A stretch of DNA of 64,000 nt from Candidatus Saccharimonadota bacterium. Its GTDB lineage: Bacteria > Patescibacteriota > Saccharimonadia > Saccharimonadales > UBA4665. The DNA lies in the NCBI GenBank assembly GCA_013289705.1, contig JABCZM010000006.1, forward strand, positions 1 through 64,000, read 5' to 3'. The translations under genes were made by a program, and so were the position numbers. The notes below the pieces were generated by a model. That model ran no database searches, had not been told where the DNA came from, and saw only the letters and a program-made list of their open reading frames with translations. Positions 4,169 through 39,681 of this stretch are shown here, in pieces (positions within the stretch are counted from its first letter, which is position 1; every line of letters starts with the position of its first letter).

Positions 4169-5473
4169 ATGGCAATGGAATCAGCAAGAGCAACAGTACT
4201 CGTTATTGGTAGTGGCGGTCGTGAACAGGCTCTGGCCTGGAAGCTAGCACAATCTGCGCATGTTAAAAAAGTCTATATAGCGCCTGGCAACGGTGGCAGT
4301 ACGGGCAATATCGAAAATGTGGCGATTGGCTTTACTGATGTGCCTGAACTGCTGAAATTCGCCCAGGAGAAGCACATTGACCTGACGGTGATTGGTCAAG
4401 AAGCCGCCTCCGATGCGGGTGCTGTTGATGCCTTCAAGGCCGCTGGGCTTACCATTTTTGGCCCAACCAAAGCCGCCACAAGGCTTGAAGCTTCTAAAGT
4501 TTTTTCCAAAGACTTGATGGCTTCCGAACATATTCCAACTGCGGCATACCAAACGTTTACCGACCCAGGCGATGCAATCGAATACGCCACCAGCCGACCG
4601 CTACCGGTCGTGATTAAGGCGGATGGTTTAGCCACGGGTAAGGGTGTCTATATTTGCGCAACTGTGCAAGAAATCGGCATTGCAATCACCGATATTATGG
4701 TCAAAAAGGTCTTTGGTGAATCTGGTGACAGCGTGGTGGTGGAAGATTTTCTGAAAGGCCAGGAAGTTTCGGTGCACGCCTTATGCGATGGCAATCAGGC
4801 CGTTATGTTCCCTGCTTCGCAAGATCACAAGCAAGTGTTTGATGGTGACAAGGGTCCGAATACTGGTGGTATGGGCGTGATTGCGCCGGTACCATGGGTA
4901 ACGCCTGCTCATATTGAGGCTACAAAGGCACAAATTGTCTTGCCAGCATTGGCTGGCTTACAAAAGCGCAACACGCCGTTTACGGGCTGTTTGTACCCCG
5001 GCCTGATGATTGACGGTGACGACATTAAGCTGCTCGAATTTAACGCTCGTTTTGGTGACCCAGAAGCCGAAGTGTACATGCGACTACTCGACGGTGATCT
5101 TTACGAGGTACTGACGGCCTGCGCCAAGGGTGAGCTTGATCCTTCTAGCATCGCCTGGAAGCCTGGTTTTGCCGTCACGGTGGTGCTGTGTTCGCCAGGT
5201 TATCCGGCCGACTATCCAAAAGGCCTGCCAATAACCGGCATTGCCGAAGCCGAAAAACTCAACGACATCGTAGTCTTCCACGCTGCGACTATTAGAAATA
5301 CGATCGCCGGAAACGATGATGAAATCCTCACTGCTGGCGGCCGGGTACTGAACGTTACTGCTACTGGCCCAACGCTTGAAGAAACAATCGACAAAGCCTA
5401 TGCCGCTGTCAAACTCATTAACTTCGAAGGCATGCACTACCGCACCGACATCGGCAGAAGACTCAATGGCTAG
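4169..5473 (+). CDS. purD: Phosphoribosylamine-glycine ligase PurD
   Basis: PurD is an ATP-grasp ligase forming GAR from phosphoribosylamine, glycine and ATP. The N-terminal domain has VLVIGSGGREQALAWKL and APGNGGS. The ATP-grasp domain has VIKADGLATGKGV (near 148), DHKQVFDGDKGPNTGGMG (near 224) and LLEFNARFGDPEAE (near 290), carrying the metal-binding Glu/Asn. The length of 434 residues is normal. AGGAAGGTG at 4155-4163 is a good ribosome-binding site for ATG 4169. Its 3' end overlaps the next HAD gene by 8 nt. Confidence 0.96.
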   Translation: MAMESARATVLVIGSGGREQALAWKLAQSAHVKKVYIAPGNGGSTGNIENVAIGFTDVPELLKFAQEKHIDLTVIGQEAASDAGAVDAFKAAGLTIFGPTKAATRLEASKVFSKDLMASEHIPTAAYQTFTDPGDAIEYATSRPLPVVIKADGLATGKGVYICATVQEIGIAITDIMVKKVFGESGDSVVVEDFLKGQEVSVHALCDGNQAVMFPASQDHKQVFDGDKGPNTGGMGVIAPVPWVTPAHIEATKAQIVLPALAGLQKRNTPFTGCLYPGLMIDGDDIKLLEFNARFGDPEAEVYMRLLDGDLYEVLTACAKGELDPSSIAWKPGFAVTVVLCSPGYPADYPKGLPITGIAEAEKLNDIVVFHAATIRNTIAGNDDEILTAGGRVLNVTATGPTLEETIDKAYAAVKLINFEGMHYRTDIGRRLNG

Positions 5474-6128
5474 CATCAAGCTGCCAAAGGCGATATTATT
5501 TGACGCTGATGGTACGCTCTATGACAGCGAAGCACTGAACTACGAGGCAAACCGGCGGACGGCCAAATTATTGCACGATTTTGATATGACCTGGGATGAT
5601 TTCGACATCCACGTGCGTCGTGGCACGAAGTCAGGCTTTATGATACTTGAAGAAACTGGGATAGTGGTCGACCGCGAAGCGTATCTGTCCAACAAGGCCG
5701 AGCAATTTCGCATCTTGGTAGTCGAACGTCTTCAGCCGCAGCCTGGCTTAGTACCTTTCTTAGAGTGGTGCACGATGCAGCATATTCGTTGTAGTGTGGT
5801 GAGTGCATCGCGTCGGGTTCAGTTGCTGACTGCTCTTGGAACGCTCAAAATTGATCATTTTTTTGAGGACGTTGTCAGTATGGAAAATATTGATGAGCGT
5901 CCCAAACCAAACCCCTATCCGTATGAGCTTGGGCTCAAACGTCTTGGCATTGAGCCGCACGAAGGGCTGGTTATCGAGGATACTCCCAAGGGTATTGCGT
6001 CCGCCAAAGCTGCTGGCCTGCGCTGTGTCGCGATTCGCAACACAACTAATAGTCTTTCCGAACTAGCGGCCGCGGACTTTGTTATTACGCATTACACTGA
6101 GCTTCAGGGTCTTTTATTAGTTGACTAG
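5466..6128 (+). CDS. HAD-superfamily hydrolase (phosphatase/phosphomutase-like)
   Basis: A 220-residue HAD subfamily IA hydrolase. Motif I is ILFDADGTLYDSE (nucleophile and acid/base Asp pair), motif II the Ser of CSVVSASRR, motif III a Lys in ERPKPNPYPYELG, and motif IV VIEDTPKGIASAKAAG. Such enzymes dephosphorylate sugar phosphates or nucleotides, or act as beta-phosphoglucomutases; the substrate cannot be read from sequence. ATG 5466 lies inside the last codons of purD (8-nt overlap), so it probably belongs to the purF-N-D unit. It converges on the next gene with only 3 nt between stops. Confidence 0.88.
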   Translation: MASIKLPKAILFDADGTLYDSEALNYEANRRTAKLLHDFDMTWDDFDIHVRRGTKSGFMILEETGIVVDREAYLSNKAEQFRILVVERLQPQPGLVPFLEWCTMQHIRCSVVSASRRVQLLTALGTLKIDHFFEDVVSMENIDERPKPNPYPYELGLKRLGIEPHEGLVIEDTPKGIASAKAAGLRCVAIRNTTNSLSELAAADFVITHYTELQGLLLVD

Positions 6129-8646: not shown

Positions 8647-9306
8647 TTATAAATCCTCCAATGAGTCCATTAAATCATGTAATGAGCTAATAAGCACGTC
8701 GGGTTTGGCGGCTTTTAGTCGCTTCGTTGAGTACATACCACCAGTAATAGCCACTGTTTTCAAGCCAAGTTGTTTGCCGATGGTGATTTCTTCGCCAGTG
8801 TCACCGATAATGAACGCTTCGTGTGGTTGAACATGACTACTCGCCAAGTACGTTTCTAAGCGAGCTGTTTTACCCATGTGAACAGCACCATGAATGTCAT
8901 CATTGGCCAAAATTGTCTCGAAATGATGGTCAAGCTTGAGCCGCCGTAGCTGTTGGGTGATACCGGGTACATGATGATTACTTAAGATGATTTTTGTCAT
9001 GCCTCGCTCATGCAGGGTGTCAAGCAATTGGCGGGCGCCTGGTCGTGTACGCGTTTGGTTCACGCCCTGTTCGTAGATATCGTGAAATGCAGCATGCATG
9101 TCTGTTGCATGGGCTTTGAGTAGATCGGGAGTTAAGCCAAGATTTTTATAATAGTTAGTGAGGGGGATTTCAAAGTACTGCCGTAAGAAACTCAGCGTAA
9201 ACGGTGGCAATCCGGCAACTGCAAGCTCACGCTGACCAGCAAGTAAGGTAAGTTTGCTATCAGCCAGCAAGGTGCCATTCCAGTCAAAAACAGCTAGTTT
9301 TATCAT
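8647..9306 (-). CDS. HAD-superfamily hydrolase, phosphoglycolate-phosphatase-like
   Basis: A 219-residue HAD protein. Motif I is LAVFDWNGTLLADS, with Trp-Asn in place of the more usual Met/Leu-Asp, so the second Asp of DxD is replaced by Asn. Motif II lies in IILSNHHVPG, motif III near KTARLETYL, motif IV is IIGDTGEEITIGKQLG. The D-x-N variant may lower or alter phosphatase activity. It overlaps the purK stop by 4 nt, so it is translationally coupled to purK. Substrate unknown. Confidence 0.8.
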   Translation of the reverse strand: MIKLAVFDWNGTLLADSKLTLLAGQRELAVAGLPPFTLSFLRQYFEIPLTNYYKNLGLTPDLLKAHATDMHAAFHDIYEQGVNQTRTRPGARQLLDTLHERGMTKIILSNHHVPGITQQLRRLKLDHHFETILANDDIHGAVHMGKTARLETYLASSHVQPHEAFIIGDTGEEITIGKQLGLKTVAITGGMYSTKRLKAAKPDVLISSLHDLMDSLEDL

Positions 9307-10445
9307 ATTTTAAGGTGTTTACGGGCGGTTTGGGCTCGTTTGCGGGCTTCGGCGATGGTTTTGCCGGTGGCGTTGATGTGGCCCATTTTGCGGTCGATTT
9401 TGGTGGGCGATTTGCCATACAAATGCACCGAAACTTCGGGAATCGCCAAAGCTTCGTCTAGGCCAACTACCTCTGTCGGTCCGTCATGCTCACCCAGAAT
9501 GTTAATCATGACGGCGGCTGGAGCTGTCAGGTCGGTTGCTCCCAATGGCAAGCCGGAAATAGCTCGAATGTGTTGTTCGAACTGGCTGGTGCGACTAGCA
9601 TCCATGGTGTAGTGGCCGGAGTTGTGGACGCGCGGTGCGATTTCGTTTACCAGCACTACGCCGTCTTTGTTGAGGAACATTTCGATACCAAACATGCCCG
9701 CACCATCCAGTAGGGCCGCAACCTTGGCCGCTAGTTTTTCCGCCGTTTTGCGGACGCTTTTACCCACCGGCGCTGGTGCCAATACCTCGATGCAAATATT
9801 GCGTTCGTGGATGGTTTCGACTACCGGGTAAACGGCGACATCACCAGCAATACTACGAGCAACCATCACGGCTAATTCTTTGTGGAACGGCACGAATTTT
9901 TCGGCGTATAAAGCCTTACCGGCGAATAATTTGAAAGCTTCGTCGACCTGAGCGTTGGTTTCAACCACCATATTGCCACGGCCGTCGTAGGCACCGTGAC
10001 GGGTTTTGAGTAGCATTTTGCCGTCAAACTCTTTGAGTACTGACTTGGCTTCAAGTGCGTTATCGACCTTGGCAAACGGTGCGACGGGAATCCTTGCTTG
10101 CTGCAGAAATTCTTTTTGGGCGAATTTGTCTTGGATCAGTCGAATAGTCTTGGGTGCGGGATTAACCGGCTTGCCCAATTTTGCCACTTTTTCCAGCTCG
10201 TCGGCATCCAAATGTTCAATTTCAATGGTGATAAAATCAGATACAGCTGCTAGTTTCTGTAATGCGGCTGGATCGTACAAATCACCAACGATCTCTTGGG
10301 CGCCAACTTGTGCAGCCGGGCCACCAGCTTCTGGATTAATCACCGCCACCTTAAAACCGAGTGGTTGCGCGGCCAGCGTGAGCATTCTGCCGAGTTGTCC
10401 ACCACCAACGATGCCAATTGTTTTTTGGCCTTGCATATCTGTCAT
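9303..10445 (-). CDS. purK: N5-carboxyaminoimidazole ribonucleotide synthase PurK
   Basis: PurK is the ATP-grasp enzyme carboxylating AIR with bicarbonate to N5-CAIR, used by PurE. Visible are IGIVGGGQLGRMLTLAA at the N-terminus, TRHGAYDGRGN in the ATP-grasp domain and VNEIAPRVHNSGHYT near residue 275 of 380. ATG 10445 is chosen because a -10-like TACAAT (plus positions 10452-10457) lies 6 nt upstream, giving a leaderless start; a longer frame to 10484 adds unconserved residues. It is divergent from purC and first in a minus-strand operon with three HAD genes and purE. Confidence 0.94.
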   Translation of the reverse strand: MTDMQGQKTIGIVGGGQLGRMLTLAAQPLGFKVAVINPEAGGPAAQVGAQEIVGDLYDPAALQKLAAVSDFITIEIEHLDADELEKVAKLGKPVNPAPKTIRLIQDKFAQKEFLQQARIPVAPFAKVDNALEAKSVLKEFDGKMLLKTRHGAYDGRGNMVVETNAQVDEAFKLFAGKALYAEKFVPFHKELAVMVARSIAGDVAVYPVVETIHERNICIEVLAPAPVGKSVRKTAEKLAAKVAALLDGAGMFGIEMFLNKDGVVLVNEIAPRVHNSGHYTMDASRTSQFEQHIRAISGLPLGATDLTAPAAVMINILGEHDGPTEVVGLDEALAIPEVSVHLYGKSPTKIDRKMGHINATGKTIAEARKRAQTARKHLKI

Positions 10446-10539
10446 AGAGCAATTGTACAGAGGATTTGCCGATTTTGCCACCACTGGCTACTACCGTAGT
10501 AGTTTGAGATTTGCCGTCGCTCGCATACAATAGAAGCTA
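10446..10539. promoter_or_regulatory. Divergent purK/purC promoter region with palindrome
   Basis: This 94-bp gap separates two pur operons. For purC I see TTGAGA (10504-10509), a 16-bp spacer and TACAAT (10526-10531), 8 nt before ATG 10540. For purK a minus-strand TACAAT (10452-10457) lies 6 nt before ATG 10445. A perfect inverted repeat CTACTAC/GTAGTAG (10488-10502, 1-nt centre) sits just upstream of the purC -35 and could be an operator. Regulation by purine supply is only inferred. Confidence 0.6.
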
Positions 10540-11499
10540 ATGAGTGAACGGGTTATCGATAGCACTGATTTTCACTTCCCTAAACAGGAGGCGGTTTATC
10601 ACGGCAAGGTGCGCGATGTGTACGATATGGGTGAAAGTTTACTGTTTGTAGCCTCCGATCGTTATTCGGCATTTGATCGCAATCTGGCTCTAGTGCCGCA
10701 CAAGGGTGAAATTCTAACGGCTACCAGCAAATGGTGGTTTGAGCAAACGGCACCTATTATCAAAAACCACATTATCGACTACCCTGATCCAAACGTCGCA
10801 CGCGGCAAAAAATACAAGGTGGTGCCAATCGAAATGGTAGTACGGGGTTTTATTACGGGTGTTACGAATACTTCCCTGTGGCATACCTATTCCGAAGGCC
10901 AACGAGATTACGGCGACTTTACGCTCCCTGATGGCCTTAACAAGAACGATCCGCTACCCCACCCTGTTTTAACGCCGACGACGAAGTTCGAAAAACACGA
11001 CCGCAACTTGACGCCAAGCGAAGCGGTTGCCGAAGGTTTGGTTGACGCAGCTATCTGGGAAAAACTGCAAAAAGTTGCGGTTGAACTGTTTACCTTCGGC
11101 CAAAAGGTTGCCGCCGAAAAGGGCTTGATTTTGGTTGATACGAAGTACGAATTTGGCACTGACGATGCTGGCAACATTGTGCTTATTGATGAAATTCACA
11201 CCCAAGACTCATCCCGCTACTGGCTTTCGGAAAGTTATCAGGCTAGCTTAGCCGCCGGTAAAGAACCAGATAATTATGACAAGGAATTTTTGCGGATTTG
11301 GTACAAAGAACGCTTTGACCCGTATGTTGATGCCGATCAGGCTCCAGAAGTTCCAGCCAATGTTATCGAGGAGTTAAAAAATCGTTATGTATATGTATAC
11401 GAGCAGCTGACTGGCCAAAAGTTTGTACCCACGGACGACGCTATCAATCCACTCGAACGTATTGAAACCAATGTGCTTAAAGCGCTAGAAAGGTCTTGA
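10540..11499 (+). CDS. purC: Phosphoribosylaminoimidazole-succinocarboxamide synthase PurC
   Basis: PurC (SAICAR synthetase) joins CAIR and aspartate with ATP. Motifs are YHGKVRDVYDMG near residue 20, VPIEMVVRGFITG near 90, and LIDEIHTQDSSRYWLSESY near 214, which matches the family's D-E-x-x-T-x-D-S-S-R-(F/Y)-W signature. The length of 319 residues is of the long bacterial type. No Shine-Dalgarno sequence is seen; the mRNA is probably leaderless. purB follows after 3 nt. Confidence 0.95.
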   Translation: MSERVIDSTDFHFPKQEAVYHGKVRDVYDMGESLLFVASDRYSAFDRNLALVPHKGEILTATSKWWFEQTAPIIKNHIIDYPDPNVARGKKYKVVPIEMVVRGFITGVTNTSLWHTYSEGQRDYGDFTLPDGLNKNDPLPHPVLTPTTKFEKHDRNLTPSEAVAEGLVDAAIWEKLQKVAVELFTFGQKVAAEKGLILVDTKYEFGTDDAGNIVLIDEIHTQDSSRYWLSESYQASLAAGKEPDNYDKEFLRIWYKERFDPYVDADQAPEVPANVIEELKNRYVYVYEQLTGQKFVPTDDAINPLERIETNVLKALERS

Positions 11500-20850: not shown

Positions 20851-22389
20851 CTACACATAGCCGGGGAAGTAATCTACTTTGATATGGTTTTTTGGGACAC
20901 CTAGCTTACCCAGCGCCTCCCGCACGGCAGCAACCATTTGATGACTACCGGAGATATAGAATGTACGGTCTTGGTAATCTGGTACTGTCGCACGTATAGC
21001 ATTGCCGTCCACGTATCCGGCACGTTGGTGTGCTTCGAGGGGTTGTGTAGTGTCGGGTCTCGCCAGCAGATATGTCGTGGCAATGCCAAGCTCTTGACGT
21101 GCCCGTTCAAACACCCCCTTATATGCGATATCCTGTGCGTTGCTGGCTGCGTATAACACGATAACGTCACGCTGCTCGCGAGTATCTATGAGGTACTTCA
21201 CCATGCTGCGGAATGGGGTAACACCAATGCCGCCGGCTATAAATACTAGCTTGCGTTTTTGGTTCTTTGGCAAGATAAAATCCCCTGCAACTTGAGCAGC
21301 TACAATTGAGGTCTCATCAGTCATGTCTAGCATCGCTTTTTTATAACTACTGCTTTGCTCGTAGAACTTTACACCAAGCCGGAGGTTTGGTTCGGTTGGT
21401 GAAGAAGCCAGTGTAAAGTACCGCCGGTTGCCGCGGTCATCAATGTGGTCATGGGGCAATGTCCACTCCATGTACTGTCCCGGCTGGTATGCTAGCCGCT
21501 TGTTGGGGTTAAACACGAAATCAACGCTATTGGCTGCAATGCGGATTTTTTGTGTTAGTACTGGGAACAGCCGTACACGTGGGTTGATGATATATGCAAA
21601 GACGTTACCAATGACGAGCGATAGTTCGGGTGACGTGTAGAAGCTGGCGAGATGTACTTGTGGAGGAACTAGCAAGCCAACTAGTATACCGAATAATGTC
21701 TGTTTGCCCTTTGTGCCCGGCGAAGTGAGTGGCTCGGTCAACATGACGAACCCTAAGAAGAAGACAGGCGAAGTAAGCGCCGTCTGCTTTATAGCTGTTA
21801 GTATGCTGCCGTGGCCAAACCACGTAAACAGTGCCGTCGCGACAAACGTAGTAATGAAGAAACCAATCACCATTTGTTCGCGCCTGATTTTTCGTACAAT
21901 CAATACACCACCAGCAAGCACGAATGGCAACATAATGGCTGTACCAATCCACCAACTTGCATTTTGTCGTGGTCCAAATGCTGTTATGACAACCGCCAAT
22001 GCCGCCGGATTAAAAATATGGACATCATGAATAGTTAGGACGTATTTGGAAGCCATAGCTAGACCTGATGCTGCTAGCAAAAACGTAAAGTCGTACAAAC
22101 CAAGCTTAGGGGTAATCAGCAGCGCCAATATAAGCGCGGTAATAATAGAAGACTCGTGGTTTACGGGCGTATTGAAGATAAAGGCAAAGACACGGTTAAT
22201 GCTCCAACAAGCAAGGAGCAGGATTACCGTAGAGACAAGCAACGCAGTGGGCCTAAAGCCCAGATTTCCGAACAAACCAACTACAAATGCAATTGCTAGC
22301 AATCCACCCAGATAATAGATGAGCAGCCGGTACATGGTAGTTTTGTTTAAGAAGTCGTCGACGGTTTTAAGCATACACATACTCCCCAA
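20851..22389 (-). CDS. RnfD/NqrB-like membrane domain fused to FAD/NAD(P)H ferredoxin-reductase domain
   Basis: A 512-residue fusion. Residues about 20-285 form 9-10 membrane segments of the NQR2/RnfD/RnfE type, with VHIFNPAALAVVI and MLTEPLTSPGTKGKQ as family hallmarks. Residues about 290-512 are a ferredoxin-NADP reductase-like module: RRYFTLASSP (FAD site), IAGGIGVTPFRSM (pyridine-nucleotide site), and a terminal ISGSHQMVAAVREAL. It would take electrons from cytosolic NAD(P)H through the membrane to the flavoprotein encoded at 23118. I see no S/T-GAT flavinylation motif in the membrane half. It overlaps the apbE frame by 23 nt; ATG 22374 (MCMLKTVDD) is an alternative start. Confidence 0.87.
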   Translation of the reverse strand: MGSMCMLKTVDDFLNKTTMYRLLIYYLGGLLAIAFVVGLFGNLGFRPTALLVSTVILLLACWSINRVFAFIFNTPVNHESSIITALILALLITPKLGLYDFTFLLAASGLAMASKYVLTIHDVHIFNPAALAVVITAFGPRQNASWWIGTAIMLPFVLAGGVLIVRKIRREQMVIGFFITTFVATALFTWFGHGSILTAIKQTALTSPVFFLGFVMLTEPLTSPGTKGKQTLFGILVGLLVPPQVHLASFYTSPELSLVIGNVFAYIINPRVRLFPVLTQKIRIAANSVDFVFNPNKRLAYQPGQYMEWTLPHDHIDDRGNRRYFTLASSPTEPNLRLGVKFYEQSSSYKKAMLDMTDETSIVAAQVAGDFILPKNQKRKLVFIAGGIGVTPFRSMVKYLIDTREQRDVIVLYAASNAQDIAYKGVFERARQELGIATTYLLARPDTTQPLEAHQRAGYVDGNAIRATVPDYQDRTFYISGSHQMVAAVREALGKLGVPKNHIKVDYFPGYV

Positions 22390-23104
22390 AACCAGTTGTG
22401 AGCGTCGCTGTGCCTTTGTTGTCTACCATGTAGCCCTCTAAGCCCTCGGTACGCTCAACAAAGTGTATGCCGTCCTTACCCATAGCAAATGCCGCTGTTG
22501 CAAAACGGTCAGCCTCGTAGATATTTTGGCCAACAACTGTCAAACTTTGTACGTCTGTAAGTGAAGTGTTGGGTTGATGTGGGCTGTAAATATGCTGGCC
22601 GCGTATGTACGTGCCTGATGTCGCAACCCCTTTGTTTTTTATGTGCAGTACCTTGATAATCTCATCACGGTTAAAGGGGTTGCGTATGCCGACTGTCCAT
22701 GGCTGCCGCTCGGCGTTGTTGCCGTATGTTTGTATATCGCCACCCGCTTCAATGTAAAAGTTTCTGCTGTCGCGTTTGCGTAACCGCTTGGCAGCTTCCC
22801 AGATTGCCCAGCCTTTTACTAAACCTGACGGGTCAATTTTCCCCTCATGCTCGATGTCAAAGTAGCCGTCCGTCTGCTGTTTCGTTGCGTCACATAAACG
22901 TAATACCTGGCGCATTTCCGCACTCCATTTGGATTTAGGTAGGCCATTGTTAATGTGTGTAATTTCACTGTTCGTTTTGTAGGTGCTGTAGCGGTTGTCT
23001 ACTTCCTGAAAGAACTTGAACGTATCAGCCAAGAGTCTCGTATCATTATTGTCCACTATCTCGACAGTAATTGGCATGCCCATAATAAGTTTTGTTTGCT
23101 TCAT
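22367..23104 (-). CDS. apbE: FAD:protein FMN transferase ApbE
   Basis: ApbE moves FMN from FAD to a Thr of a target protein. The 245-residue protein has KLIMGMPITVEI at the start, PSGLVKGWAIWEAAKRL near residue 110 (family G-x-x-V-K-G-W-A), FYIEAGGDIQTYG near 136, and ATSGTYIRG. The terminal block ADRFATAAFAMGKDGI matches the family's D-x-x-(A/S)-T-A-x-x-x-x-G. No signal peptide or lipobox precedes the domain, unlike most periplasmic or lipoprotein ApbE forms, so it may act before export or be exported another way. ATG 23104 avoids overlap with the upstream gene; 23137 is the alternative. Confidence 0.9.
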   Translation of the reverse strand: MKQTKLIMGMPITVEIVDNNDTRLLADTFKFFQEVDNRYSTYKTNSEITHINNGLPKSKWSAEMRQVLRLCDATKQQTDGYFDIEHEGKIDPSGLVKGWAIWEAAKRLRKRDSRNFYIEAGGDIQTYGNNAERQPWTVGIRNPFNRDEIIKVLHIKNKGVATSGTYIRGQHIYSPHQPNTSLTDVQSLTVVGQNIYEADRFATAAFAMGKDGIHFVERTEGLEGYMVDNKGTATLTTGFGEYVYA

Positions 23105-23117
23105 ATTTTTTAATTTC

Positions 23118-23606
23118 TTAAGCTTGCGAAAGCGCACTGCTCAGCGACTGAATAAATGCCTGACTGGTGTAGGTAGCACCACTAATGATGTTAACATTTG
23201 CACTTTGTGCTTTAATCGCTTCCTGTTGCAAGTACGGCATGGCCTGTTGGTTAATGTACACGGAAGTTGAGTGAGTATTGGGGTATTGCAAGAACGTCAC
23301 GTCGGTAATTTTGCCGCCGCTAATCGTTGCTCTTACCTGTACGTTGCCATAATAGGCGTCTCCAACGCTGCCCGTGTAACTGCCATCTTTATAGCTACCG
23401 CCACTGTTTTGGCTTGTACTACTAGTAGCCCCTGTTGAACTACTGTTCGTTGGTGGAGGTGTGCCGGAGCTGCTGGTCGTAGAGCTTGGGGTGTTATTAG
23501 CAGCTAATGAGGTGGGCGGAGTAATTTTTGGTTGCTGGTGCCGGATACCTAGACTATATACAACCAGTACGCCGAGCAGCATGATACCAATAATGTATTT
23601 CTTCAT
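23118..23606 (-). CDS. Membrane-anchored FMN-binding protein with flavinylation motif
   Basis: A 162-residue protein with an N-terminal membrane anchor (MKKYIIGIMLLGVLVVYSLG), a Ser/Thr/Pro-rich linker and an FMN_bind domain like those of NqrC/RnfG: YKDGSYTGSVGDAYYGNVQV, then IISGATYTSQAF near the C-terminus. The SGAT motif carries the Thr to which ApbE attaches FMN. It would face the cell exterior. ATG 23606 is chosen over TTG 23627 because a -10-like TATAGT lies 7 nt upstream and overlaps the longer reading. It heads the module FMN-binding protein, apbE, RnfD-reductase. Confidence 0.9.
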   Translation of the reverse strand: MKKYIIGIMLLGVLVVYSLGIRHQQPKITPPTSLAANNTPSSTTSSSGTPPPTNSSSTGATSSTSQNSGGSYKDGSYTGSVGDAYYGNVQVRATISGGKITDVTFLQYPNTHSTSVYINQQAMPYLQQEAIKAQSANVNIISGATYTSQAFIQSLSSALSQA

Positions 23607-23641
23607 GCTAGCAACTATACGGCGCAAGTCTGTATATTTGC

Positions 23642-24640
23642 TTACTGGGCGTGAGCAAGTGGCAACGTAATACGAACCGTTGTGCCACTATGTTCGCGGC
23701 TACTAATATGAATCATTCCACTATGGGCACTGGCAATCTCTTGCGCCAACGGCAAACCGAGGCCGTAGCCACTCGCGGCCTTTTTGTCTGATTTGGTATT
23801 TGCCGAACGGTAAAAACGTTCAAACACATGGGATAAATCATTGGACGGTATGCCGATGCCGTCATCTTTTATGGTAAGCAGCGCGGTTGCCTCATCTGTC
23901 CGTAATGACACTGTAACGGTTCCCTGCTTGTCGCTGTACTTAAGAGCGTTGTCGAGGACGATAGTAACGAGTTGCTGTAAGCCGTGTTGGTCGCCTATAA
24001 CCTGTGTTGGTCGGACATTTTGTTTGATACGGATATGCTTTTCTTGTGCGGCGTGATCAAGTTGTCTGGTCACATTTTGCACGATTTCATCGAGGTCGAG
24101 CAGTACTCGCTCGGCGGCTGTTTTATTTTGGTAGCGGGCAATGTCAAGCAAGTTGCCCGTGAGTTTCTCTAATCGTGCAATGTCGCGCAAATTACCCTGC
24201 AAGGTTCGCCGTGTTTTGACTGGCAGCCCCTTCTCCATCAGTGCAACCTCGGTATCCGCTCGCATTGCAGCCAGTGGTGTGCGTAACTCGTGACTGGCTT
24301 CGGCAGTAAAACGGGTTTGTGCTTGATGGGCATATTCAATTGGTTTTAGGGTGCGACGGGCAAAAAAGTAGCCGACAGCACTTGAGCCAGCAATAACGGC
24401 AAGGTTAAGCCACAGCAGTTCACCAAGCAAATGCCGCCCGTGCCGCTGTATATCTGAGTGAGGTGGCGGAATGTTATCCTTGTCATGGTCGTTATCAACG
24501 AAGCTGTTGTATTGGTGATTCAGTGCTTCGCCAAGTTCTTCAGTTGAAAGGTGATATACAACGGCACTAAAGAGTATGCATAAGCAGCTTGCCAACAGTA
24601 CGTACCATAACGTAAGTTTAGCTGTCGCTGACCGAAACAT
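23642..24640 (-). CDS. Sensor histidine kinase of the flavin-module two-component system
   Basis: A 332-residue kinase: membrane segments at about 9-29 and 73-94 flank a short acidic extracellular loop (FVDNDHDKDNIPPPHSD). The H-box is ASHELRTPLAAMR (His near 117). The ATPase domain has the N box LDNALKYSD, G1 IKDDGIGIP, F box FERFYR and G2 GYGLGLPLA. The small sensor loop suggests sensing of a simple signal such as an ion or the envelope state. It lies 4 nt downstream of its response regulator and 15 nt upstream of the FMN-binding protein frame, so it may control that module. Confidence 0.92.
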   Translation of the reverse strand: MFRSATAKLTLWYVLLASCLCILFSAVVYHLSTEELGEALNHQYNSFVDNDHDKDNIPPPHSDIQRHGRHLLGELLWLNLAVIAGSSAVGYFFARRTLKPIEYAHQAQTRFTAEASHELRTPLAAMRADTEVALMEKGLPVKTRRTLQGNLRDIARLEKLTGNLLDIARYQNKTAAERVLLDLDEIVQNVTRQLDHAAQEKHIRIKQNVRPTQVIGDQHGLQQLVTIVLDNALKYSDKQGTVTVSLRTDEATALLTIKDDGIGIPSNDLSHVFERFYRSANTKSDKKAASGYGLGLPLAQEIASAHSGMIHISSREHSGTTVRITLPLAHAQ

Positions 24641-24643
24641 TAC

Positions 24644-25324
24644 TTACTTCACTCCCAGTCGGTAGCCAAAACCACGTACCGTGTGAATAAGCGGTGGCTT
24701 GTCGGGAAAGCTTGTATCTAGCTTGCGGCGTAGGTAGCCCATATACACCTCGACGGTGTTCGGAACGATAATAGTGTCATCGTCCCAAACGTGGTTGATA
24801 ATTTTGTCTTTGCTCAGCACTTGCCCTTGATTGTATAGCAAGTACGATAGCAGTTTTATCTCTTTTGCTGATAGTGCCACTGGCTTACCGCCGCGTGTTA
24901 CCGAGAATGTTACAGGGTCGTATGCAAGGTCATCTGCCGTAAGTATCGTGCCGAGTGTCTGTCGTGGGCGACGTAGTAGCGTCTGAACACGGGCAATTAA
25001 TTCTCTCATGGCAAATGGTTTTTGTAAGTAGTCATCGGCGCCGGCTTGCAAGCCGTTTACGCGATCATCTACTTCTCCAAGAGCTGTGAGCATAATGATT
25101 GGCGTACTAACACCTTGTTGCCGCACTTGTTGGCAAACTGCAATACCGTCGATACTGCCAGGTAGCATGCGGTCAAGTATTACTAGGTCATAGTCGGGGT
25201 CAATTGCTGCCGTCAAGCCACTGTCCGCGTCATCAACAATATCTACTGCATGATGTTGCAGCTCCAGTGCTCGCTTAATTGCTTGTGCAATACGGGCTTC
25301 ATCTTCAATAACTAACAAACGCAT
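24644..25324 (-). CDS. OmpR/PhoB-family response regulator
   Basis: A 226-residue regulator. The receiver domain has the acidic pair EDE near residue 7, phospho-acceptor Asp51 in LVILDRMLPG and the conserved Lys in LQKPFAMREL. The C-terminal winged-helix domain has LSAKEIKLLSYLLYNQGQVL and the final VHTVRGFGYRLG. ATG 25324 lies 7 nt after TACAAT (25332-25337 complement), so this first gene of the operon is probably leaderless. Kinase and flavin genes follow on the same strand. Confidence 0.94.
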   Translation of the reverse strand: MRLLVIEDEARIAQAIKRALELQHHAVDIVDDADSGLTAAIDPDYDLVILDRMLPGSIDGIAVCQQVRQQGVSTPIIMLTALGEVDDRVNGLQAGADDYLQKPFAMRELIARVQTLLRRPRQTLGTILTADDLAYDPVTFSVTRGGKPVALSAKEIKLLSYLLYNQGQVLSKDKIINHVWDDDTIIVPNTVEVYMGYLRRKLDTSFPDKPPLIHTVRGFGYRLGVK

Positions 25325-26359: not shown

Positions 26360-27013
26360 ATGCACGAATTTCTTTCCTGGTTAGATCGCTACACCGAAAG
26401 TTTGCAGGTCTTTCTGCAGGCCCATATAGTTTTAGCGCCACTCTTGCTCCTACTGATAGAAGAAATGGGGGTGCCGATATTGATTCCGGGCGATGCCATC
26501 ATTGCTTATGTGGGCTACGGCCTCAGCCAACATCATTCAGCAGCGCTGTGGCAAGCATTTGTTCTCGCCTTAGTCTCGGTGCTAGGGGGTGCTACCTTTT
26601 TATTTTATGCGGCGCGCCGTTACGGTAAGTGGCTTATCAATACAGTTGGCCGTTTTATATTTTTGCGCCAGAGCCACATCGACAAAGCTGAAAAGCTGTT
26701 TGCACGCTACGGTGTTTGGACAATTATTTTCGGCCGGCATATACCTGGTTTGCGTATTCCAATTACCATTTTTGCCGCCACTTCCGGTGTGCGGTACCGT
26801 ACTTTCATTGCCAGTACCTTCGTTTCGACCGTACTTTGGATATTATTTTACCTTAAGATTGGTAAGACATTCGGCCCAGGCTTCCAGAACCTGTTCCGCC
26901 GTGATGCTACCCTGTCGATCGTGGTGGTTGTGGGTTTATTGTTGTTGGTTGTCGGTCTGCACTTTTATGGTAATTGGCGCCGAGCGTTGGCAATAAAAAG
27001 GAATAAGCCATAG
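26360..27013 (+). CDS. DedA-family membrane protein
   Basis: A 217-residue DedA/SNARE-associated (VTT-domain) protein, a family implicated in undecaprenyl-phosphate or phospholipid flipping and proton-dependent homeostasis. The LLIEEMGVPILIPGDAIIAY re-entrant segment and FGRHIPGLRIPITIFAATSG, with the conserved G-R-x-x-P-x-x-R, are present, with about five hydrophobic segments. TAAACT lies 7 nt upstream of ATG 26360, consistent with leaderless initiation. Confidence 0.9.
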   Translation: MHEFLSWLDRYTESLQVFLQAHIVLAPLLLLLIEEMGVPILIPGDAIIAYVGYGLSQHHSAALWQAFVLALVSVLGGATFLFYAARRYGKWLINTVGRFIFLRQSHIDKAEKLFARYGVWTIIFGRHIPGLRIPITIFAATSGVRYRTFIASTFVSTVLWILFYLKIGKTFGPGFQNLFRRDATLSIVVVVGLLLLVVGLHFYGNWRRALAIKRNKP

Positions 27014-27542: not shown

Positions 27543-28079
27543 TTAAGCTTCAAAAAATTTTATGAGCTGGTCTAGATCGGGAATTTTCTGGCGCGCTTCT
27601 TCTAAAACTTCAAGTGTGAAATGTCGATCGTAGGAGGCTGGAGTTCGCCGCTTGTCGGCCTGTATGTAATCTCGTTGAAACTCATGTTTGCAAGTTCTGG
27701 ATTGATACCCTGAGTAGTTTTTACCTGGATTTAGTATTGACAGTAGCATTGTGTCAAGACATGGAGTATTCCAGCAAATTTCAATGTTATCCTTTGTCTG
27801 TGCAATTGCTACCGCATTATCATGCTCGGCGCGTGATCGATCGTTATCTACTTTAACAAGGTATCTATCAAAATCATCAGGTATTCGGAGAGTCTCCCGT
27901 ACTATTGAGTCGGGAGATCCTCCGCCGCCTTGCTGGGCTTTAAATCGTGTATTTGTTGCACTTCGACTAGCGTATAGCTTCTTAATGTGCCTGACAAAGG
28001 CGAGATCATGCGCACCCTCACAGTATATGAGTGCCGTAGGTCTAACTTGCCTACTGATTCTTGGGTGACGATTCAGCAT
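27543..28079 (-). CDS. RloB-like protein (AbiL-type defence partner)
   Basis: A 178-residue RloB-domain protein. ALIYCEGAHDLAFVRHIKKL, with the conserved Glu, and the acidic YLVKVDNDRS resemble a Toprim-like nuclease core; ICWNTPCLDTMLLS and YDRHFTLEVLEEAR match the family's later helices. With the AAA ATPase 4 nt upstream it forms an RloA/RloB (AbiL-like) pair, a known type of abortive-infection or restriction-linked defence module. No restriction-modification genes are next to it. Confidence 0.78.
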   Translation of the reverse strand: MLNRHPRISRQVRPTALIYCEGAHDLAFVRHIKKLYASRSATNTRFKAQQGGGGSPDSIVRETLRIPDDFDRYLVKVDNDRSRAEHDNAVAIAQTKDNIEICWNTPCLDTMLLSILNPGKNYSGYQSRTCKHEFQRDYIQADKRRTPASYDRHFTLEVLEEARQKIPDLDQLIKFFEA

Positions 28080-28083
28080 GATT

Positions 28084-29280
28084 TTATCCTATATCCGGTA
28101 CTCCACCGTATGCGCCAGCAAGGTATTTTGTGTAGTAATTCTCGCCTGCTCTAACGCCACTTACCTCATCGAGACGCCAGATGGCCGTTTGTCCATCATC
28201 TTCTTTCTCGGTAATCACAATCTGGTATTTATCAAGTTGCGCTAGGATGCGATGGTTATGCGTACTAAAAAGTAGTTGTGCATTCTTGGAGTTTAAATCT
28301 GAGTCACCAAACATGCTGACCAATTCTTGAATCATGTCTGGGTGTAGACTCGCATCAAACTCGTCTATGATAGCCATAGAGCCCTTAGCAAGTGCAAGGA
28401 GGATGATTTTCAGCAGCCCGTATAGTTTCCTTGTGCCGGAAGATTCGTAGTCTAATTGTAGCGGGAGTTGTTTATTGCCAAATTTGTGAACAACGCTGAC
28501 CTGGAGTTGATGGTTTTCTGACTCTTCGATATTGAAGTTGCTAAGTCCAAGATCAAACTTTTGTAGAATTTCATCAGCTTTTTCTTTTAGATCCTTGTTG
28601 AGATGGAAATAACTCACTGCACCGTAAAGTGCTTCATGACTACCGAAAACTTGATCACCAATGTAGCCAGACTCTTTAACATTGAAATCAATAGTTTGCC
28701 AATAGGCTGCAATCTCCCGGCTTAGCTTATGGTTCAGTCGTAAGGCCGTACTAATGGCTGTTGCATTATCACGTATTAGAGTCTCAAATCCTGGGGGAGC
28801 ATCAAAGTTTGCTAGCGATATCTTGTAGCTAACGTCGTCTTTGGTGCCAGAACGTTCAAACAGAGTTTTTGCGGTTCGACGCTTAGAGGTTATGCTTCTC
28901 TCCACTAGTCTTTCGTAGTGGATTTTTTTGGCGGTGAGATGGACATCATATTCAAAAATAACTTCACCGAGAGAGAACACTACACCTAACTTCGTGAGAT
29001 CATTCTCCGATGTGGTCATGAACGGCTTGATTGGGATCTCGCTGGTGGGGTTCTCATTCCAGGAGTCAGTTAGTAGCCATTTGATAACAGGCAGCACTTT
29101 AAGGAGATTTGTTTTTCCAGATGCGTTAGGCCCAATCACAGACTCTAATAGAGAAATCCTGGTATCAGTCGCATCTTTTATGTAAGTAGTCTTGTCGGGG
29201 GCATTATCGTCCGCGACAAAGCTAAGGTCCATTCTGTCTTTAAAGGAGTAGAAATTTTCGCAGCTGAATGAGTGTATCAT
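28084..29280 (-). CDS. RloA-like AAA/OLD-type ATPase of a defence pair
   Basis: A 398-residue ABC-like ATPase of the AAA_15/AAA_21 group. It starts SFSCENFYSFKDRMDLSF, has Walker A IGPNASGKTNLL near residue 49, the signature-like SSGTRKLYGLL near 284, Walker B AIIDEFDASLHPDM near 308, and the His switch FSTHNHRI. RloA proteins act with RloB as toxin/sensor ATPases in phage defence. TATAGT (complement of 29292-29297) gives a leader of only a few nt. A palindrome overlaps the promoter. Confidence 0.82.
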   Translation of the reverse strand: MIHSFSCENFYSFKDRMDLSFVADDNAPDKTTYIKDATDTRISLLESVIGPNASGKTNLLKVLPVIKWLLTDSWNENPTSEIPIKPFMTTSENDLTKLGVVFSLGEVIFEYDVHLTAKKIHYERLVERSITSKRRTAKTLFERSGTKDDVSYKISLANFDAPPGFETLIRDNATAISTALRLNHKLSREIAAYWQTIDFNVKESGYIGDQVFGSHEALYGAVSYFHLNKDLKEKADEILQKFDLGLSNFNIEESENHQLQVSVVHKFGNKQLPLQLDYESSGTRKLYGLLKIILLALAKGSMAIIDEFDASLHPDMIQELVSMFGDSDLNSKNAQLLFSTHNHRILAQLDKYQIVITEKEDDGQTAIWRLDEVSGVRAGENYYTKYLAGAYGGVPDIG

Positions 29281-31837: not shown

Positions 31838-32041
31838 TTATTTCTTTCGTGTTGCAAGCCAAAGCGATAGGCTCAGCATAGTTATGACCAGAGCTGGCAA
31901 TAACCACCACGCCTGTACTCGAAGGCCATGGGCTAAGAGTCCCGTTAAGGCCAGCCCCATGATGACGCCTGCTGCAATTCGCCAATCGTCACCAATTATG
32001 AAGTGATACCAGAATGACCCAAATCGTTTTAAGATGTTCAT
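31838..32041 (-). CDS. Small two-helix membrane protein (67 aa)
   Basis: The frame from ATG 32041 gives 67 residues with two hydrophobic helices (DWRIAAGVIMGLALTGLLA and WWLLPALVITMLSLSLWLA) and a basic end TRKK. It overlaps the upstream COG4280 gene by 4 nt (ATGA), so it is coupled to it and may be its partner or subunit. Family unknown. The longer frame to 32161 runs into the upstream coding sequence and is rejected. Confidence 0.65.
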   Translation of the reverse strand: MNILKRFGSFWYHFIIGDDWRIAAGVIMGLALTGLLAHGLRVQAWWLLPALVITMLSLSLWLATRKK

Positions 32042-32796
32042 GCTAATCTTCCGTTGCCGGTAAATTGAACATGTCGACGTTTCAGCCATGTCACCTGCAC
32101 CAAAGCGGTTGCAGTGATGAGTGCTATCACGCAGAATAACGCAGCATCGCTCCCTGGCCACTTTATGCCCGCACCTTCCGAGCCCCAGAATATTCCAAAG
32201 CTGGTCAGCATAATGCCTACCGCAAACTTCAAACTGTTTTCGGGAACCTTCGACAATGGCTTGTGGATCTTAACGCCAGCAGCCACAATCACGATTACGG
32301 CAGATGCCGCAGCTATAACCGCTAGTGGTATTGATCCTTGATTGGCACCAAATGTTACGACAATAAACGCCACCTCCAGTCCCTCAAGTAGAACACCTTT
32401 AAAGGCAATCGTAAAAGCATACCAGTCGTCGATCATGGCTTTTTGCTGAGCATGCTTCACACGCTTTGCTGCGGCTGCTGCTTTGTCAAAAATAGCAGCT
32501 TCATCGTGTAGCGGTTTGAAGCCGCTGGCTCGCAGGATAGCTTTTTTAAGCCACTGTAGCCCGAATGTTAACAAAAGACTACCAACAATGAGCCGCAAAG
32601 CATTGATAGGAATGAGTGTCAGTGCCGGACCCAATACAGCCACAAAGATACCCAACACAATTGTAGCCGCCCCGACCCCATACCACGTCGAGCGCCAGCC
32701 ACGAGTTGTGCCCATGGCTAGCACGATTGTTAACGCTTCAACTCCTTCGACGATGGAGGCTAAGAAGACGCTAAGAACCAATAAGAAATTATGCAC
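32038..32796 (-). CDS. COG4280-family integral membrane protein
   Basis: A 252-residue membrane protein with about seven helices in two similar halves. FLASIVEGVEALTIVLAMG and GVLLEGLEVAFIVVTFGANQ each carry an E-G-(V/L)-E motif, the hallmark of this family and reminiscent of cation exchangers (UPF0016/GDT1) and FTR1 permeases. Metal transport is a plausible but unproven role. The cytosolic linker (DEAAIFDKAAAAAKRVKHAQ) is helical. It overlaps the small membrane gene downstream by 4 nt. Confidence 0.78.
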   Translation of the reverse strand: MHNFLLVLSVFLASIVEGVEALTIVLAMGTTRGWRSTWYGVGAATIVLGIFVAVLGPALTLIPINALRLIVGSLLLTFGLQWLKKAILRASGFKPLHDEAAIFDKAAAAAKRVKHAQQKAMIDDWYAFTIAFKGVLLEGLEVAFIVVTFGANQGSIPLAVIAAASAVIVIVAAGVKIHKPLSKVPENSLKFAVGIMLTSFGIFWGSEGAGIKWPGSDAALFCVIALITATALVQVTWLKRRHVQFTGNGRLA

Positions 32797-38372: not shown

Positions 38373-38696
38373 ATGTATTCATTCCCTACACTCATTAAAA
38401 AGATTCGAACCGAGGCCGGTCTCACACAGGCTGAATTTGCTGTGGAATTGAAAGTTTCTCCAATACTTATTGCAATGGTTGAAAGTGGTCAAAAGCCCGT
38501 TTCAAAAAATCTATTAGAGAAGCTAGCCAATAGGCTCAATGTGCATCCTGCATCCATCACTCCATTTTTATACGGTGACAATGTTCGGGATAAGGACATG
38601 TCGAGGGTTGAAAAACAATTCTTAGCTCTAGGCACTAAATTGCAAGAACATTTGATTAAGGACAGGTCTAAACTGCTAAAAAAACATGCCAGCTAA
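38373..38696 (+). CDS. XRE-family HTH regulator of the retron-like operon
   Basis: A 107-residue protein. Residues about 4-60 are a Cro/CI-type HTH: LIKKIRTEAGLTQAEFAVEL, then SPILIAMVESGQKPVSKNLL. A short charged helix (RVEKQFLALGTKLQEHLIKD) follows. ATG 38373 is preferred to TTG 38361. It overlaps the reverse-transcriptase gene by 11 nt. HTH plus RT is the organisation of type VI-like retrons, where the HTH protein belongs to the defence unit; it may also repress the promoter at 37775. Confidence 0.85.
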   Translation: MYSFPTLIKKIRTEAGLTQAEFAVELKVSPILIAMVESGQKPVSKNLLEKLANRLNVHPASITPFLYGDNVRDKDMSRVEKQFLALGTKLQEHLIKDRSKLLKKHAS

Positions 38697-39681
38697 TCGC
38701 TACCCTCAATTAAACATTCGCGGTAAAAACGAATTAGCTAAGCACATAAGCAATAAACGTTTGCCTTACGAAAAAGCACTTGCGCTAATAAACGATGTTC
38801 AGAAAAATCACGATTCATACTGGCGCGACCATCCAAAGTATTCACAACCCGATAAAGGTAAATGGGTGCGCGACGCTTCACAATCGGATCTCGGGAAATT
38901 ATTGAAGCTGATTGATGGAGAGGTGCTGAAGCCAAACGACAAATTACTGCCGCCATTTCTCTTTGGCGGGCTGAGTGGCAAAAACCACAAAGGAGCCGTC
39001 CAACATCTCCTCGGCAACAAGCGCAAGCGAGTTATGCTAAAGCTTGATATTACAAAGTTCTTCGAACAGAACAGTTACGATCGGGTTTATCACTTTTTCT
39101 TAGACAAAGCAGGATGTAGTAAGGCCGCAGCAAAGTTACTTGCTGACATTTGTTGCGTTTATTATGGGGCTAAAGATACCCCCGAAAAATATCAAACAAT
39201 TGCCCGTGGTTTCCCAACTTCCCCGCGACTCGCGGTGTGGTGCAATCTTGACGCATTTATCAAACTTGAACGGCGAGTCCGTAAGGAACTAAGAGGCAAA
39301 GACCCACGAGTGGCTATCTACGTTGATGACATCGGTATTACGGCAAGTCGCGCAACTAAAGAAGCGATGATGAGGCTGTACCCTAAAGTAAAAGCAATTC
39401 TGGAATCAGACAAAAATCAAAAGTTGCCATTGAATGAAAAGAAAACCAAAATTGTCTTCCACTCCGGAGAAACTTTCAATACTGATGGTAAGCACATTGG
39501 TAAACAAGGGTTTGAACTGCTTGGCCTACAAATGGGCAGGAACAAACTTACATTAGGCACTAAAACTCGTTGGAAGCTTATGAATATTACGCAGCAACAT
39601 CGCGACGCGAAACGAAAAAATAAAAGTATTAGGCGTTCCCGCAAATCGATTTTGCGTTACAAAGACTATATCGAAAAGTAA
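38686..39681 (+). CDS. Retron-like reverse transcriptase
   Basis: A 331-residue RT. Palm motifs: VMLKLDITKFFE (Asp121), ARGFPTSPRLAVWCN (174-187, RT motif 4 in the retron form P-T-S-P), the catalytic IYVDDIG (Asp214/Asp215), and FELLGLQMGRNKL near 276. GAVQH before the first palm motif resembles the retron N-A-x-x-H element. It lacks maturase, endonuclease or integrase domains and has retron-type length; the DGR S-Q motif is absent. It makes cDNA presumably from the RNA encoded upstream. It converges on the Ntn-hydrolase gene with 11 nt between stops. A non-retron DRT-type defence RT is the alternative. Confidence 0.8.
   Translation: MPANRYPQLNIRGKNELAKHISNKRLPYEKALALINDVQKNHDSYWRDHPKYSQPDKGKWVRDASQSDLGKLLKLIDGEVLKPNDKLLPPFLFGGLSGKNHKGAVQHLLGNKRKRVMLKLDITKFFEQNSYDRVYHFFLDKAGCSKAAAKLLADICCVYYGAKDTPEKYQTIARGFPTSPRLAVWCNLDAFIKLERRVRKELRGKDPRVAIYVDDIGITASRATKEAMMRLYPKVKAILESDKNQKLPLNEKKTKIVFHSGETFNTDGKHIGKQGFELLGLQMGRNKLTLGTKTRWKLMNITQQHRDAKRKNKSIRRSRKSILRYKDYIEK

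Follow-up and report, generated by a model that had tools for sequence, protein, structure and literature searches.

A predicted NQR/RNF-like electron-export operon in a Candidatus Saccharimonadota genome

A five-gene flavin operon

The stretch analyzed here (the window) comprises 64,000 nucleotides of contig 6 of a Candidatus Saccharimonadota genome (GCA_013289705.1; 1.24 Mb in 13 contigs, 97% complete), and our subject is an operon on its minus strand, running from position 25324 to 20851. In order of transcription, it encodes an OmpR/PhoB-type response regulator, a sensor histidine kinase, an FMN_bind protein, an ApbE flavin transferase, and a fusion of an NqrB/RnfD-like membrane domain with a reductase. 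All five genes score above Pfam cut-offs, and their adjacency, order, and strand are as stated in the original prediction, which was made by a model from the letters alone. The intergenic gaps are 3 to 35 bp, and the ApbE and fusion genes overlap by 8 bases; this tight spacing and the overlap of the last two genes make a single operon likely. The starts of three genes in the mechanical open reading frames (ORFs) were replaced by comparison with relatives; the re-set start codons of the FMN_bind, ApbE, and fusion genes are ATG 23606 (162 amino acids [aa]), ATG 23104 (245 aa), and ATG 22374 (507 aa), respectively.

We compared the operon with other loci (numbered L###) and genomes (G###, where G000 is the genome of the window). 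The nearest relatives of the fusion in a protein search are from Candidatus Saccharibacteria, with 77 to 79% identity, in keeping with the earlier assignment of the cell to the candidate phyla radiation (CPR), and the closest of these have kept an identical five-gene order. When the window was compared with L008, nonsynonymous divergence (dN) was 0.13 to 0.28 per gene and synonymous divergence (dS) was at least 1.8 or saturated; judged from these codon comparisons, purifying selection acts on all five genes. Because the closest relatives retain the gene order and dN is far below dS, the operon is not a chance arrangement. PADLOC matched no defense family among the three electron-transfer proteins.

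A membrane domain fused to a reductase domain

The fusion (20851..22374, minus strand) consists of an NqrB/RnfD-like membrane domain (residues ~1 to 270) followed by an NqrF/FNR-type FAD-NAD(P)H reductase domain (residues ~270 to 507). Pfam finds NQR2_RnfD_RnfE (PF03116) and NAD_binding_1 (PF00175) over cut-off in one 512-aa mechanical ORF, and the C-terminal half is nearest in NCBIfam to flavohemoprotein, flavin reductase, and NqrF reductases, all below curated cut-offs. An AlphaFold model built from an alignment of 16 relatives (A1) has a mean predicted local distance difference test score (pLDDT) of 84.7 and a predicted template modeling score of 0.80. Residues ~12 to 270 of this model match RnfD (8ahx_D; Z 24.2, root-mean-square deviation [rmsd] 3.1, 242 aligned residues) and NqrB (8evu_B; Z 22.8, rmsd 3.2, 249 aligned), and residues ~270 to 510 match NqrF FAD domains with Z ~25. 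The NqrB/RnfD matches come from the VIA-align list, the Foldseek list for the fusion being dominated by the reductase half. Among the relatives in A1, the motifs RRYFTLASSP and GGIGVTPFRSM are conserved.

Two features of the classical complexes are missing. The fusion has no counterpart of the 2Fe-2S ferredoxin domain of NqrF, and the membrane domain of the window fusion and its close relatives contains no [ST]GA[ST] flavinylation string, with SGAS or TGAS occurring in only 3 of 79 fusions. A membrane domain without a covalent flavin site has been published for the NQR/RNF-like class, according to passages of PMC11334425. At the level of the genome, the window fusion is the sole match to the PF03116 profile, and a protein search adds one further copy, also a fusion; there is no separate NqrB/RnfD, the remaining NQR/RNF subunits not having been searched one by one genome-wide. 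With no NQR2_RnfD_RnfE protein besides the two fusions, the genome is unlikely to encode a full NQR or RNF complex, and we rejected a full pump, the operon too being devoid of other subunits. The fold common to NqrB, RnfD, and the fusion would also fit a minimal energy-conserving ion pump derived from NQR/RNF, but the same lack of partner subunits, together with the absence of the ferredoxin domain and of the covalent flavin site of NqrB/RnfD, makes such a pump very improbable.

An anchored FMN_bind protein and a short ApbE

The FMN_bind protein (23118..23606, minus strand; PF04205, 2.5e-10) starts with a hydrophobic anchor (hydropathy 2.61), continues with a Ser/Thr/Pro-rich linker, and ends in the FMN_bind domain. 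Among solved structures, its best match is 8p2a, an FMN-binding domain (6e-15), whose SGAT aligns with SGAT at residues 142 to 145 of our protein, within IISGATYT. T145 (23172..23174, minus strand) is thus the predicted site of covalent flavinylation, and the claim of a SGAT-bearing FMN-binding protein, here with a membrane anchor, was borne out. Elsewhere, L061 has two FMN_bind genes (9029-9649 and 10270-10689), and L109 encodes an outer protein with tandem domains (5000-5947). Since genes or domains are doubled in some relatives, the outer flavin chain can exceed one FMN.

The adjacent ApbE, an FAD:protein FMN transferase (22367..23104, minus strand; PF02424, 2.8e-41), is short. The Pfam profile aligns in two pieces, positions 1 to 74 and 125 to 265, leaving out some 50 positions (about 75 to 124), and this gap is found throughout the clade of window-type ApbEs, whose median length is 247 aa. 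The catalytic machinery is retained: S163, H171, D199, and R168 align with S257, H273, D301, and R262, reported as the triad and arginine of FmnB, and are invariant in alignment A2. The AlphaFold model (pLDDT 91.7) resembles FmnB (query-normalized TM-score 0.89; Foldseek E 5e-20) and Treponema Ftp (TM-score 0.91). Its fold and its catalytic Ser-His-Asp are in place, and the original claim that the adjacent ApbE would be the enzyme attaching FMN to the FMN_bind protein is supported.

No signal peptide, lipobox, or hydrophobic N terminus was found in this ApbE, where a conserved MGMPIT motif starts at residue 8, and nearly all window-type members share the same kind of start. An export signal is typical of most, not all, bacterial ApbEs and is not a defining feature; cytosolic ApbEs exist, such as the signal-less Klebsiella enzyme that flavinylates a soluble fumarate reductase (PMC12052999). 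Since the window ApbE has no signal peptide and cytosolic ApbEs are known, flavinylation inside the cell is the plain reading. The enzyme probably flavinylates in the cytosol, before or during export of its target, and the FMN_bind protein would then be exported with FMN already attached, which makes covalent attachment in the cytosol followed by protein export a testable sequence of events. The likeness to the Klebsiella ApbE lies in the missing signal and expected cytosolic location; the differences are that the predicted target here is exported and membrane-anchored and that the enzyme is short of ~50 profile positions.

A predicted one-way route for electrons

These findings are consistent with the following mechanism. 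NAD(P)H would reduce the FAD of the fusion's C-terminal domain on the cytosolic side, from which electrons would traverse the membrane through the NqrB/RnfD-like domain, presumably over a non-covalent flavin, and then reach FMN predicted to be held covalently on T145 of the anchored FMN_bind protein, outside the cell. ApbE would supply that FMN in the manner described above, and the kinase and regulator would probably control expression. Domains, fold matches, and models agree in indicating that two proteins suffice for the whole path from NAD(P)H to the exterior, as was originally proposed. We put the probability that the operon is an NQR/RNF-like one-way electron exporter at roughly 75%, a figure that excludes the nature of the acceptor.

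The module is already known and is not a novelty. NQR/RNF-like systems were reported in 2021 and 2024 from Actinobacteria and the CPR (Meheust 2021 eLife, PMC8238504; mSystems 2024, PMC11334425), and passages of these papers already name the CPR as a main holder and propose, rather than demonstrate, that electrons move in one direction, from NAD(P)H to an extracytosolic acceptor. The operon has what the published definition (PMC8238504) describes, namely N-terminal PF03116 and C-terminal PF00175 in one protein, with FMN_bind and ApbE directly upstream, and it shares with those systems the NqrF-type reductase fused to an NqrB/RnfD-like domain that has no covalent site. Beyond what the available passages describe, the window genome adds a regulator-kinase pair upstream, a short ApbE without a signal peptide, and a divergent further copy. 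New, too, are the genome census, the location of that second copy near VIT1 and Nramp, the recurrence of the regulator-kinase linkage, and the cupredoxin loci, all described below.

Comparison with better-studied machines helps to place the system. With Na+-NQR (NqrA-F) and RNF, it shares the NqrB/RnfD and NqrF folds and a covalently flavinylated partner of NqrC/RnfG type, here predicted; it differs in that two proteins take the place of six or more and that a return path, a 2Fe-2S domain, and a flavinylated Thr in the membrane domain are all absent. In Listeria, FmnB is exported, and electrons are donated by a membrane NADH dehydrogenase together with quinone. The FmnB/PplA system for extracellular electron transfer there resembles ours in its ApbE-type FmnB with equivalent Ser-Arg-His-Asp and in its covalent outer FMN (predicted for the window), but the window ApbE has no export signal.

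An adjacent two-component system

The response regulator (24644..25324, minus strand; 226 aa; Response_reg 1.5e-26, Trans_reg_C 2e-25) is nearest to OmpR-type families in NCBIfam, below curated cut-offs; in L007 and L008, the corresponding position is occupied by an orthologue with 80% identity. The histidine kinase (23642..24640, minus strand; 332 aa; HisKA, HATPase_c), whose orthologues in L008/L007 are 64 to 66% identical, has two N-terminal hydrophobic segments flanking a short Asp/His-rich loop that is presumably extracytosolic. We assigned the kinase neither a stimulus nor a sensor class: by eye, the ~45-residue loop carries Asp and His in the window and L007 and no His in L009, and the best NCBIfam names (RppB, CztS/CopS, RppA, and CopR) are all far below cut-offs.

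The original prediction gave the module "its own" two-component system. The pair directly adjoins the module in the window, L007/L054, L008, L009, L059, and L080; the order regulator-kinase-FMN_bind-ApbE-fusion is retained in L007/L054, L008, and L009, the distant L059 shows regulator-kinase-FMN_bind-fusion, and in L080 the pair lies directly downstream. In several other loci it is near the module without adjoining it, and it is absent beside most copies. This absence would also be expected if the pair were a chance neighbor that does not regulate the module, as would the presence of ~10 histidine kinases (HisKA) in the genome and of another similar pair near the cyo genes. We consider this somewhat unlikely, in view of the gaps of only 3 to 35 bp between the window genes and of the conservation just described: linkage in close relatives and its recurrence in distant ones favor regulation of the module. 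The adjacent kinase and regulator probably set its expression, and it is plausible that they are the module's own two-component system.

Distribution and two types

We surveyed a sample of 380 Patescibacteria genomes. The same fusion, which the original prediction had suggested looking for in other Saccharibacteria, is widespread there and in the CPR, with full-length versions in 61 of the 380 genomes, one of them interrupted by a stop. ApbE was found in 83 genomes, 43 of which have both proteins; it is thus present in 43/61 fusion genomes and 40/319 others (Fisher 9e-20). If the proposed mechanism is correct, about one in six sampled CPR genomes encodes a route of two proteins by which electrons leave NAD(P)H for the exterior, a point of relevance to metal acquisition or redox-stress handling in reduced symbionts.

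A midpoint-rooted tree of 78 fusions splits, with support of 100/100, into type A (the window type, 58 rows) and type B (20 rows). The ApbE of type B is longer (~290 to 300 aa), and Pfam gives no FMN_bind for its outer protein in the two members scanned. In hhalign, the type B outer protein profile nevertheless pairs with the FMN_bind family of type A (probability 97.8, E 9e-13), and these proteins have SGSS, AGSS, or GAS-type motifs at their ends, where the site is expected. The window genome holds one copy of each type. Its type B copy is a second, divergent NQR/RNF-like system on contig 4 of G000 (~118830-121730; L052:8832-11730), accompanied by a divergently transcribed gene for an ArsR-type regulator and followed by VIT1 and Nramp genes.

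The acceptor

The cell had been presumed to be fermentative, a premise that its gene content does not support. Contig 6 carries an NDH-2-like gene and a complete cyoABCDE set at 68772-78221 (L125), a combination likewise described for a rhizosphere Saccharibacterium (PMC6031116), and the organism probably has an aerobic respiratory chain. With NDH-2 and cyoABCDE present, the module is not needed as the sole NADH outlet. This bears on a dissimilatory role, in which surplus NADH electrons would be discharged by extracellular electron transfer onto a mineral, a quinone, humic matter, or an acceptor supplied by a partner. Such a path requires one-way topology and an outer flavin that is anchored, as predicted for this module, and Listeria uses covalent flavins in this manner. 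However, besides the alternative outlet on the same contig, the operon contains no multiheme cytochrome or other wall-crossing carrier and nothing at the locus points to a bulk acceptor, which is why we regard a dissimilatory role as unlikely. External electron disposal, one of the uses first suggested, is possible but is favored by no evidence at this locus; most likely, the operon would serve the cell's own needs by reducing an extracytosolic acceptor rather than dispose of fermentation electrons in bulk.

What that acceptor might be is suggested by genes near other copies. VIT1 and Nramp lie 2.4 and 3.1 kb, respectively, from the type B copy on contig 4; in L099/L100 (closely related to each other, from G345 and G009), the fusion is followed after 52 bp by Nramp in the same orientation; and VIT1 lies 19 bp downstream of a type A fusion, again on the same strand, in L060 (G366). 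Passages of PMC8238504 also mention VIT1 in six NQR/RNF-like clusters. Such direct same-strand adjacency is less expected by chance, but the independent cases are few and the link is no more than suggestive. Metal reduction is our best-supported guess, for which the evidence lies with the paralogue and relatives rather than with the window locus, and reduction of ferric iron (or another metal) for uptake is the leading single candidate use, which we put forward tentatively.

Several points weigh against this picture of an exporter serving metal reduction. Nramp or VIT1 is close to the fusion in just 4 of ~79 loci, two of which are close relatives, and VIT1 or Nramp occurs somewhere in roughly one half to two thirds of the genomes with a fusion, so that some such neighbors are expected by chance. 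No metal transporter adjoins the module at the window locus or in its closest relatives. An OFeT_1-type iron permease-like membrane protein is encoded 6.7 kb upstream in the window (32038-32796, minus strand; 33.9 bits, cut-off 26.9), but we rejected it as a module member, as none of its homologues was found close to another copy. It would also be unusual for a protein to be exported with its flavin already in place. Finally, the literature on such systems, in the parts available, contains no biochemistry on any two-protein member.

Cupredoxins beside fusions in ApbE-less genomes

No ApbE match was found in 18 of the 61 fusion genomes. In one of these, G118, an ApbE start is cut by the contig end, so that a few of the 18 are assembly gaps. 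In six of these 18 genomes, a cupredoxin is encoded within 1.3 kb of the fusion, three times on the same strand (L087:3444-3953, L088:9870-10310, L091:6033-6545, L103:7723-8130, L104:5633-6058, and L106:8321-8806). All six contain PF13473 and five of the six PF00127, and in four of them His-Cys-His-Met residues arranged as in a type 1 copper site can be made out by eye. We searched with a domain-only profile, an iterated hidden Markov model having drifted onto FMN_bind, apparently via the shared N-terminal anchor. In the stretches fetched around the fusion, no cupredoxin was found in any of the 43 ApbE-positive genomes (6/18 vs. 0/43; Fisher 3e-4, with no correction for genome kinship), and the cupredoxin loci are spread over at least three parts of the fusion tree.

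Most simply, these loci would mean that a copper protein can replace the flavin protein as the recipient of electrons from the membrane reductase. We found no report of a cupredoxin exchange with such fusions in the open-access literature. A broader view, possible but somewhat doubtful, is that the fusion is a general CPR electron outlet with exchangeable outer carriers: flavoproteins flavinylated before export by a short cytosolic ApbE or, in ApbE-less lineages, cupredoxins of the blue-copper type. The window operon would then be the flavin version, under two-component control. That one membrane reductase serves a flavin or a copper carrier is thereby made testable, and this exchange and the short cytosolic ApbE are the parts that merit pursuit.

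The same loci could be read differently, with the electrons used neither for metal uptake nor for disposal but for envelope enzymes or redox homeostasis, such as oxidized-protein repair, copper-site reduction, or thiol exchange. The six cupredoxins would fit, as would DsbA-like or MsrA-like genes near the fusion in ApbE-less genomes (single cases, MsrA by eye) and CopA and CsoR genes near a few fusion copies. None of these genes, however, adjoins the window copy or its close relatives, and we judge such a role for the window operon to be unlikely.

Other genes in the window

Further neighbors were considered as members of the module and set aside. The downstream genes for a 489-aa protein and DAGK have no relatives near other fusion copies, and the DedA/VTT gene at 26360 has a few relatives, inconsistently placed. 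Elsewhere in the window, an AAA ATPase gene and its partner (27543-29280, minus strand) match PADLOC AbiLi (2e-73) and AbiLii (7e-9) and form a candidate phage-defense pair. A reverse transcriptase gene (38686-39681, plus strand) is nearest to PADLOC RT_VI (1.7e-23) and is followed, on the opposite strand, by a gene for a 283-aa protein with no Pfam match.

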